From Desulfomicrobium baculatum DSM 4028 (GTDB lineage: Bacteria > Desulfobacterota > Desulfovibrionia > Desulfovibrionales > Desulfomicrobiaceae): a DNA stretch of 64,000 bases. The DNA lies in contig NC_013173.1 of assembly GCF_000023225.1 (NCBI RefSeq), forward strand, positions 1,118,501 through 1,182,500, given 5' to 3'. Both the position numbers and the translations under genes were made by a program. The notes beneath the pieces were generated by a model. It did not search any database and was not told where the DNA came from. It was given only the letters and a program-made list of their open reading frames with translations. Positions 37,303 to 50,717 of the stretch are shown here, in pieces; position 1 is the stretch's first letter, and each line of letters opens with the position of its first letter.

Positions 37303-37485
37303 GCGCGCGGGCGGGGCTGGCCGGAGCCGGAGGGTCGACTGTTTGACCGATCCTGGCATCGTTTGTTTCTCCGCTGCTGCAACGTACGCAGCGCAGGCCG
37401 ATGTTCACTGCACGCAGCGGGGAAAGATTACGAGGCCGGTGAGGGAGTTTCGACACTCCGGCTCCGGCCAGCCCCGCCCGCGCTC
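37303..37485 (+). repeat. Structured repeat element, copy D
   Basis: 183 bp. The outer stem pairs 37303-37338 with 37450-37485 (36 positions, only two or so unpaired). Inside, motif 1 reads CTGTTTGACCGATCCTGG then CATCGTTTG (about 37339-37365), and motif 2 reads TACGAGGCCGGTGAGGGAGT (about 37430-37449). An inner stem, TTTCTCCGCTGC with GCAGCGGGGAAA, has one T.G pair. It lies between the convergent ends of the SbcC-like gene and the ABC adaptor gene. Not coding. Confidence 0.85.
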
Positions 37486-41806: not shown

Positions 41807-41932
41807 GCTGGAACTCCGTGTATTTGGTACGGAATTACTGAAGCACAATGGGGGGTGGAGGTCAATTTTTGAGGATTATGATTGTGCAGGATGAAGGGGC
41901 TTGAAGAAGAATTTGGGGCTGTGCAGGGCGTC

Positions 41933-42103
41933 GCATTCCGGTTCGCTCCGGAAAGGTCTCTCGAAACTCCTTCGCGGGCCTCGTAAGGTTTACCCGTCGC
42001 GTGCAGGGCGATTGAGCGTGGAAAAGTGGGGGGCGACGGGAAAACCAACGATGCCTGGCTCAGTCAGACAGTCGAGAGCCCTTTCCGGAGCGAACCGGAA
42101 CGC
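41933..42103 (-). repeat. Structured repeat element, copy A
   Basis: 171 bp. 41933-41964 pairs with 42072-42103 (32 positions, two mismatches). Read on the minus strand, motif 1 is CTGTCTGACTGAGCCAGG then CATCGTTGG, motif 2 is TACGAGGCCCGCGAAGGAGT. The inner stem is GGTTTTCCCGTCGC with GCGACGGGTAAACC. It lies about 130 bp upstream of the ABC operon start and abuts the tandem repeats at 42101. Confidence 0.85.
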
Positions 42104-42310
42104 TTGGGTTTGAGTAATTGGTGATGGGAATCAGTTTGGCAGGTGTGGGAGCCGCTAGGCACGAACTGGAGCGTTTTGGTTTGAGTAATGGTGGTGGAAA
42201 TCGGTTTAACAGGCATGGGAGACGCCCGAGGCGTTCAGGCCGCTTTGGCTTGAGTCATGGCGTTGAAAATCATTATAGCAGGCATGGCAAGCCGCCAAAA
42301 TCATTCCGCC
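42101..42310. repeat. Three degenerate 70-bp tandem repeats
   Basis: Units begin at 42101, 42172 and 42241 (periods 71 and 69). Each starts CGYTTKGGYTTGAGT, continues with a GGTGRTGRAAATC-like block, and has CAGGYRTGGSA before a GC-rich end. Units two and three are the most alike. They fill the space between the 5' ends of elements A (minus) and C (plus). No open reading frame of interest was found. Confidence 0.65.
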
Positions 42311-42323
42311 AGTGCGTCAAGGG

Positions 42324-42492
42324 CCGTTGTCGATGTGGTCCTCAGCCTCGTCGGCTGTTTGACTGAGCCAGGCATCGTTTGTTGAATCGTTGCCTGGAGG
42401 GCTGTCCGGATTTTGCGCCCTGCACGCAACGATTCAACTCTACGAGGTCGGTGAAGGAGTTCCGGCGGGGCTGAGGACCGCATCGACAACGG
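42324..42492 (+). repeat. Structured repeat element, copy C
   Basis: 169 bp. 42324-42354 pairs with 42462-42492 over 31 positions; the three non-Watson-Crick positions are all T.G on this strand. Motif 1 is CTGTTTGACTGAGCCAGG then CATCGTTTG; motif 2 is TACGAGGTCGGTGAAGGAGT. The inner stem of 13 perfect pairs joins 42381-42393 to 42426-42438. It lies downstream of the cytochrome c3 gene. Confidence 0.87.
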
Positions 42493-42551
42493 GCCGCGTC
42501 CCGCACATCTCAAAGTTTATGAAGCTCCAACGGGGGTTAGAGCCACAAAAT

Positions 42552-50361: not shown

Positions 50362-50392
50362 GAAGAACGTTTATCGTGAGTTGTTTTTTCAG

Positions 50393-50418
50393 ACGCGCCT
50401 TTCGGGGCGCGTTTTTTT
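50393..50418 (+). terminator. Terminator after the chemoreceptor
   Basis: ACGCGCC / GGCGCGT stem (50393-50399, 50406-50412) with loop TTTCGG, then T7. Confidence 0.9.
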
Positions 50419-50465
50419 ATTGTGATGCCTTGGAGAGAAGAGGGGGAATGGTTGGCTGGGCGGCC

Positions 50466-50639
50466 GCGTTCCGGCTCGTCCCGGTCAAGGCCCGCCGAAA
50501 CTCCTTCGCGGGCCTCGTAGAGTTTATCCGTTTTGCGGCAGCGCGGGAGGCCGGGGCAATACGACCGGCAACGGATCAACAAACGATGCCTGGCTCAGTC
50601 AGACAGTCGGCGAGCATTGACCGGGACGAACCGAAACGC
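50466..50639 (-). repeat. Structured repeat element, copy B
   Basis: 174 bp. 50466-50498 pairs with 50607-50639 (33 positions, four non-Watson-Crick; three are G.T on the minus strand, none on the plus). On the minus strand motif 1 is CTGTCTGACTGAGCCAGG then CATCGTTTG, motif 2 is TACGAGGCCCGCGAAGGAGT. The bases next to its 5' end (CGCTTGGTTCAGAG at 50637) resemble the flank of copy A. It lies between the chemoreceptor terminator and the repressor promoter. Confidence 0.85.
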
Positions 50640-50717
50640 TTGGTTCAGAGTTTTGGGCAGTATTTTTGTTCTGCTGTGCTGGAGGACGCATTTTTTGAGG
50701 CCACAGCATAAAAAGAT

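Follow-up and report, generated by a model that had tools for sequence, protein, structure and literature searches.

An apparently undescribed family of strand-specific hairpins in Desulfomicrobium baculatum, oriented with respect to replication

The window analyzed here, that is, the whole 64,000-nucleotide stretch of the Desulfomicrobium baculatum DSM 4028 genome from position 1,118,501 to 1,182,500 of NC_013173.1, contains four copies of an intergenic element of about 175 nt. In this element, two conserved motifs lie between covarying stems. The copies are given below with window positions; C is the copy so named in a preliminary description of this DNA, and the letters A, B, and D were assigned from the statements made there.

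42321-42495, plus strand: element C, a hairpin of 175 nt
42321-42354, plus strand: 5' arm of element C
about 42355-42381, plus strand: motif 1 of element C
42381-42438, plus strand: inner stem and apical loop of element C
42441-42461, plus strand: motif 2 of element C
42462-42495, plus strand: 3' arm of element C
41931-42105, minus strand: element A (5' arm, 42072-42105; motif 1, 42045-42070; motif 2, 41965-41985; 3' arm, 41931-41964)
50465-50640, minus strand: element B (5' arm, 50607-50640; motif 1, 50580-50605; motif 2, 50499-50519; 3' arm, 50465-50498)
37305-37483, plus strand: element D (5' arm, 37305-37338; motif 1, 37340-37365; motif 2, 37429-37449; 3' arm, 37450-37483)

In the complete genome (one contig, 3,942,657 bases), motif 1 was matched 39 times with at most 3 mismatches, and a reversed-motif control pattern gave no match under the same limit. 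Motif 2 followed at +80 to +84 from motif 1 in all 39 cases, and a 40th copy adjoined one of the pattern matches, so that the genome carries at least 40 elements. Read on the strand where motif 1 precedes motif 2 (the motif1-first strand), the element is laid out as a rod-like hairpin, in which a variable outer stem of ~34 bp leads to a conserved core, an 11-bp inner stem that is likewise variable, and an apical loop. The core, as read from alignment A2, contains a tandem G.A step (columns 33-34 with 126-127). It is almost invariant, yet one pair beside this step, 32-128, covaries (UA in 25 copies and CG in 10). At columns 19-138, G.U is the most frequent state.

When element C was folded as RNA (42316-42500), the plus strand reached -120.6 kcal/mol (z, -12.6) and the minus strand -95.8 kcal/mol (z, -8.6), whereas element A folded equally on both strands (-97.0 versus -97.4 kcal/mol). 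Over the 39 copies, the motif1-first strand was the better folder in 34 with RNA parameters and in 38 with DNA parameters. The 5' arms of these copies are poor in A and the 3' arms poor in T. On the motif1-first strand, the GC skew of the 50 nt on each side is about -0.35, whereas more distant sequence has values of -0.02 to -0.17. Between two of the elements in the window (42091-42290), a sequence of about 71 bp is repeated directly in degenerate form.

With genes predicted by our own codon-usage gene finder, any overlap between a gene and one of the 39 copies was at most 40 nt. Convergent settings were favored (16 of 39 copies versus 9 of 82 background gaps of at least 175 nt, sampled from 20 windows of 20 kb) and divergent promoter regions were avoided (2 of 39 versus 31 of 82); the remaining 21 copies lay in tandem settings (9 sense and 12 antisense), as did 42 of the background gaps. 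Such enrichment at gene 3' ends would suit a transcription terminator or a 3' untranslated region stabilizer for the adjacent genes. This function is nevertheless very improbable, as antisense and sense orientations are similarly frequent among tandem copies (12:9), and at least 6 T's in 8 nt were found within 15 nt after the stem in only 1 of the 39 copies. Within 60 nt, a T-tract occurred downstream in 8 of 39 copies and upstream in 7 of 39, and orientation tracks replication, not genes, as described below. In addition, a separate terminator-like hairpin (50391-50414) lies in the space that divides the element at 50465 from the upstream gene. Motif 1 alone is able to fold into a small hairpin with a T-rich stretch after it (42070-42052 and 50605-50587, both on the minus strand). 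These mini-hairpins were picked up in two of the four window copies by a scan for terminator-like sites, whose total of 17 sites was near the 12.2 expected by chance.

For a palindromic repeat, the kind of mismatch left in the stem can tell which strand is folded, since G.T on one strand reads as A.C on the other. The preliminary description had noted that the imperfect stem positions of the four copies were mostly G.T on the motif1-first strand and had pointed out that a consistent bias of this kind would be expected from folding and selection of the RNA or of one single DNA strand. Its details were borne out, with some additions. In copy C, the outer stem (34 pairs, ungapped) has the listed T.G at pairs 3, 6, and 18, and also a G.G at pair 31 near the stem foot, which was absent from the earlier count. 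Three of the four departures of copy B are T.G on the minus strand (T.G, T.C, T.G, and T.G), with a further A.G at the outermost pair. Copy A has the one G.T on the minus strand, and its other departures are a G.A (pair 7) and, at the stem foot, two non-pairs. Copy D has the T.G in its inner stem on the plus strand, and its sole outer mismatch is a G.A.

The equal split between strands that would have spoken against this idea did not occur when all genomic copies were counted. With strand-neutral pairing, the outer stems of the 39 copies held 82 G.T versus 14 A.C on the motif1-first strand. Under a stricter rule, pairing beyond the mismatch was required, elements lying too close to the end of a locus were left out, and identical cores were removed. 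The counts of distinct elements under this rule are given below; the three Desulfomicrobium sets (D. baculatum, its congener G010, and other Desulfomicrobium) have loci in common, and the Desulfonatronum set represents a separate family.

D. baculatum, 40 elements: G.T:A.C, 78:7; G.A:C.T, 25:7; G.G:C.C, 14:4; A.A:T.T, 2:5; G-type mismatches exceed C-type in 38 of 40
G010, 49 elements: G.T:A.C, 99:15; G.A:C.T, 25:3; G.G:C.C, 17:4; A.A:T.T, 1:3; G-type exceed C-type in 43 of 49
Other Desulfomicrobium, 45 elements: G.T:A.C, 88:15; G.A:C.T, 22:3; G.G:C.C, 11:6; A.A:T.T, 3:2; G-type exceed C-type in 35 of 45
Desulfonatronum, 23 elements: G.T:A.C, 23:5; G.A:C.T, 19:2; G.G:C.C, 8:1; A.A:T.T, 5:1; G-type exceed C-type in 21 of 23

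Because the copies are related, change events between orthologs weigh more than raw counts. Among 30 ortholog pairs, single-sided changes between a Watson-Crick pair and a mismatch comprised 51 G.T, 6 A.C, 14 A.G, 3 C.T, 4 G.G, 0 C.C, 2 T.T, and 1 A.A. The excess of G.A over C.T and of G.G over C.C, the ortholog changes, and the Desulfonatronum set all agree with the claimed strand bias. In the inner stem, 9 G.U and 2 A.C were found within the 11 consensus pairs; a count of 11:14 (G.T:A.C) obtained with strand-neutral pairing was set aside because pairing could extend into the apical loop. Judged from these comparisons, it is the fold of one strand, the motif1-first strand, that is selected.

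Selection on the pairing was also apparent from covariation. In the 39-copy alignment, both sides had changed in 31 of the 45 consensus pairs (19 of 22 modeled outer pairs and 10 of 11 inner pairs), while consensus pairing was kept in 95.8% of cells. The covariation score was 0.648, versus 0.206 after shuffling and at most 0.175 with the partners slid. The arms are mostly unlike between loci, and the pairing is preserved. Within loci, the picture was different. For 33 of the 40 elements, a counterpart was found beside the same gene or genes in G010. Pairs with summed arm identities of at most 1.5 and any second match to a partner were excluded, which left 30 of these 33 elements in one-to-one ortholog pairs. 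Their identities were 93.5% and 93.4% for the arms and 98.0% and 96.7% for the motifs, versus 79.3% and 71.1% for the flanks, and the arms exceeded the flanks in 29 of the 30 pairs. These pairs contained 17 double changes, of which 14 were compensatory, with about 4 doubles expected. Arms that are conserved within a locus and differ between loci would be expected under selection on pairing at each locus and not from an inert relic. The best-supported conclusion is that the family consists of strand-specific hairpins that appear to be under selection locus by locus.

The orientation of the copies was then compared with that of replication. By GC skew in 20 windows, replication starts near 3.5 Mb and terminates near 1.6 Mb, and the one 16S gene found was on the strand expected from this assignment; the D. 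baculatum genome paper, in the part available, gives two rRNA operons (PMC3035215). The motif1-first strand was the leading-strand template, that is, it had the lagging-strand sequence, in 34 of 39 copies regardless of gene context, which is new here. The bias was seen in convergent (14 of 16), sense (8 of 9), antisense (10 of 12), and divergent (2 of 2) settings, so that orientation follows replication and not gene context in this genome. In G010, the same orientation was found for 42 of 51 motif-2 matches, a number that excludes two 3-mismatch hits (574142 and 3541297), and the loci fetched from it comprised 49 distinct elements oriented 40 to 9. As the loci of the two genomes are mostly shared, their bias is largely one event set, and these counts are not two independent tests. 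In Desulfonatronum, the motif1-first strand was the leading-strand template in 22 of 28 copies when GC skew was taken over the 20 kb around each copy (almost zero in one case) but in only 13 of 28 by the TA skew of the same stretches. The support from this genus for the replication bias therefore depends on GC skew being the appropriate proxy there. The leading strand carried 145 of 331 kb of coding sequence in 20 sampled 20-kb windows of D. baculatum, a low share that was obtained with a rough gene finder and may reflect sampling. The idea that the five oppositely oriented copies of this genome are tolerated because their hairpins are weak was unsupported; if anything, they are more stable (-70.6 versus -66.0 with DNA parameters).

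Since most copies share one replication orientation, the mismatch polarity might be taken for an artefact of mutation, in which the asymmetry between replication strands acts on a palindrome that is otherwise idle. However, the same G-type polarity is seen in copies of the minority orientation, with G.T:A.C ratios of 9:0, 13:2, and 5:1 in 5, 9, and 6 elements, respectively. Although these elements are few, the polarity is thus a property of the element and not of replication-linked mutation. Together with arm conservation well above that of the flanks, this contradicts the artefact, which we consider scarcely credible.

Which molecule folds is a more difficult question. A multicopy structured RNA, transcribed from the motif1-first strand, with a rod that binds a protein or is processed in the manner of RNase III substrates, is a serious possibility that nonetheless falls short of an even chance. 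The covarying stems around a conserved internal core, the GT/AC polarity, the predominance of G.U at columns 19-138, and the abundance of C and scarcity of G in the 50-nt flanks on the motif1-first strand would all suit such a family, and the replication bias could then be a side effect of a DNA hairpin that is less harmful that way round. However, the 40 nt before the stem held no positionally conserved promoter (at most 0.52 bits at columns -74 to -36), none of the four window copies had a consensus promoter-like site just upstream, and a T-tract within 15 nt after the stem was present in 1 of 39 copies. A sense gene upstream was lacking in 14 of 39 copies, and tandem copies were divided between sense and antisense (9 and 12). 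Like the structured RNAs of Rfam, the element has covarying helices around a conserved core, but no Rfam family matches it. Over the whole window, only a tRNA reached the gathering threshold, and below it, element C gave three hits, all far under threshold and none meaningful.

The mismatch spectrum provided a further means of comparison. In these stems, the cost gaps with RNA parameters were 4.18 kcal/mol for A.C minus G.T, 0.09 for C.T minus G.A, and 2.50 for C.C minus G.G, whereas those with DNA parameters were 1.82, 1.44, and 2.49 kcal/mol. The observed log ratios of the three classes were 1.93, 1.80, and 1.20. G.A is thus as polar as G.T, unlike the expectation from RNA energies. In a one-parameter fit, the DNA parameters gave the better likelihood for the ortholog events (lnL, -29.4 versus -33.6 for RNA), for the distinct position-types of Desulfonatronum (-22.4 versus -24.8), and for the raw counts, which are not independent (-227.7 versus -248.3). 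For the distinct position-types of D. baculatum, RNA was slightly ahead (-38.05 versus -38.64). RNase P RNA from the same order served as a yardstick under the same rule; from 30 loci fetched among 73 matches, 5 truncated loci were excluded, and the other 25 sequences gave 71 G.T, 0 G.A, and 1 G.G, versus 59, 26, and 14 for the element. The ratio of G.T to G.A plus G.G was accordingly 71:1 in RNase P and 59:40 in the element, although RNase P is only one RNA and its stems are shorter than those of the element. G.A mismatches outnumber C.U in real RNAs and are not rare there. On the strength of the mismatch spectrum and the replication orientation, we lean moderately to a folded single-stranded DNA as more likely than an RNA, which is not proof, given that the element copies are related and that one RNA served as the yardstick.

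Our main reading, to which we assign a probability of about 45%, is that the elements are strand-specific folding sites that act as single-stranded DNA hairpins, placed mainly in the leading-strand-template orientation, with a protein-recognized core. The motif1-first strand would form the rod-like hairpin, and selection, as the sequence comparisons show, preserves its pairing by compensatory change and retains G-type mismatches on that strand. A candidate structure-specific DNA-binding or recombination protein may recognize the conserved core on single-stranded DNA or on an extruded strand. Copies would persist mainly where the folding strand is the leading-strand template, which may limit hairpin formation per fork passage, as has been described for sedentary chromosomal integrons, and local tandem duplication would produce extra copies. 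What the elements bind and do is something that we only infer. Two features sit uneasily with a single-stranded DNA. The leading-strand template is the strand that is least often single stranded, which is awkward for a function that depends on folding, and both the G.U wobble (columns 19-138) and a conserved core within the hairpin would be ordinary for RNA. In Escherichia coli, according to the part of PMC3315005 that was available, SbcCD cuts the hairpin of a 246-bp interrupted palindrome on the lagging-strand template, a reaction that was seen only when artificial palindromes exceeding natural ones in length were used. It is thus a weak guide for a 34-bp stem.

Chi and KOPS are polar sites on bacterial chromosomes. 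The elements could be a dispersed, folded-strand analogue of such sites, often located at gene ends where replication meets transcription. The folding strand would be kept on the leading-strand template on purpose, the hairpin would then form only at an uncoupled fork that exposes this template, and it would load a restart or priming factor or mark a gap. We regard this replication-linked role as unlikely.

The resemblance to integron attC sites deserves comment. As described in the accessible part of PMC5371416, attC sites of sedentary chromosomal integrons are imperfect hairpins with one functional strand in short arrays, and the folding strand is mostly the leading-strand template (25 of 30), all of which is similar to the present element. 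However, an integron integrase (TIGR02249) over the cut-off was found in none of the 16 genus genomes that were searched, nor in any of 14 control genomes, so that the search had no positive control; sub-threshold tyrosine-recombinase hits were obtained in all 16. Moreover, the conserved motifs of the element lie inside the hairpin, beyond the 34-bp outer stem. Its array spacers (L060, L061, L062, L064, and L074), by reading, duplicate one another and are not distinct gene cassettes. As partner genes, a Y1 transposase, a reverse transcriptase, and an integron integrase were considered, and none fits in the loci and genomes covered here. A reverse transcriptase (PF00078) was absent from the D. 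baculatum genome and present in 5 of the 16 genus genomes.

Numerous dispersed intergenic copies that avoid divergent regions and favor convergent ones, a hairpin, and a replication-strand bias are also features that a nonautonomous mobile element of the IS200/IS605-REP type would have, once moved as single-stranded DNA by a Y1 transposase and now mostly fixed. Y1_Tnp genes were indeed found in 9 of the 16 genus genomes, including that of D. baculatum. Such an origin is improbable all the same, because none of the 10 Y1_Tnp loci fetched among 29 places carries a copy, and G015 has 26 motif matches without Y1_Tnp. The presence of 33 of 40 copies at orthologous loci under purifying selection is unlike a relic. 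In addition, IS608 and ISDra2, as stated in the available part of PMC6006769, target the template of the lagging strand, whereas the folding strand of the element lies on that of the leading strand. The one presence/absence locus (L022) has the element in D. baculatum and G013, a remnant in G010, and other spacers in five genomes; the remnant may argue against a clean insertion. A RAYT-like Y1 transposase (334-amino-acid frame; G000:C1:1116095-1116433) is encoded about 2 kb to the left of the window, and the fetched locus is without an element. Phage sequences gave no blastn match, and an IMG/VR pattern scan gave 0 matches. Against plasmids, blastn gave three weak hits, all in plasmids of Streptomyces clavuligerus and covering 28 nt of one arm, which were judged to be chance.

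Among known repeats, the stem-loop families that include ERIC/IRU and YPAL are close in form. The portion of PMC2267715 that was available describes them as intergenic, palindromic, and foldable, 100 to 170 bp long, with tens of copies per genome, and the present element is likewise intergenic, with many copies and a fold that consists of one long stem-loop. Those families were built by sequence similarity, with folding generally common to both strands, according to that portion. The element differs from these descriptions in that its arms vary by locus without loss of pairing, selection acts on one strand, and the copies are oriented according to replication. The text of PMC2267715 has no occurrence of Desulfo, covariation, or compensatory.

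REP/BIME sequences with RAYT (the GTAG and CGTC superfamilies) are dispersed intergenic palindromes as well. REPs measure 20 to 40 bp and carry a GTAG or CGTC tag, as given in the available part of PMC3733652, and the element is set apart by its size of about 175 nt with internal motifs and by the 10 copy-free Y1 loci. A CGTC-REP-like short palindrome was seen within 600 nt of some elements in D. baculatum and G010, upstream in 36 and in the same orientation in 29 of the 39 cases listed. It occurred 4 times in 90.7 kb of element loci versus once in 400 kb sampled in D. baculatum, and 13 times in 90.6 kb versus 12 times in 400 kb in G010, which are rough figures from overlapping loci. None was found in the window.

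The elements appear to be an undescribed family of folded, strand-specific hairpins, and in the open-licence literature on Desulfomicrobium or Desulfovibrio repeats, structured RNAs, and palindromic repeat families, no listed title or abstract opening describes them. Palindromic repeats are usually treated as strand neutral; here, selection on one strand is measurable. Mismatch polarity can reveal the folded strand of such a repeat from sequence alone and may help to separate DNA folding from RNA folding. The family adds to the dispersed bacterial hairpins one that is conserved by locus, covarying over nearly the whole stem, and oriented to replication. If the selected molecule is DNA, the family would offer a naturally occurring and testable example of single-stranded hairpins with a function on a bacterial chromosome.

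Beyond D. baculatum, the exact motif pattern was found in 41 stretches of named genomes, titled Desulfomicrobium, Desulfonatronum, Desulfovibrionales bacterium, and, for one metagenome bin, Proteobacteria bacterium. An element model found copies in 24 of the 247 genomes of the order, where copy numbers are lower bounds because at most 12 candidates were scored per genome. In a phylum sample of 395 genomes, with at most 7 candidates scored in each, copies were found in D. baculatum only. Among the congeners, no element was found in G004, G006, G011, and G012 (2.3 to 3.2 Mb), and G002 has 53 motif matches. Tandem arrays were present in G002, G007, and G014, with a spacing of mostly 270 to 400 bp. 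Two loci of G002 (L063 and L065) hold arrays of half elements, in which tandem 5' halves with motif 1, in units of about 97 to 168 bp, end in a single 3' half. These arrays look as if duplication had repeatedly halted inside the hairpin.
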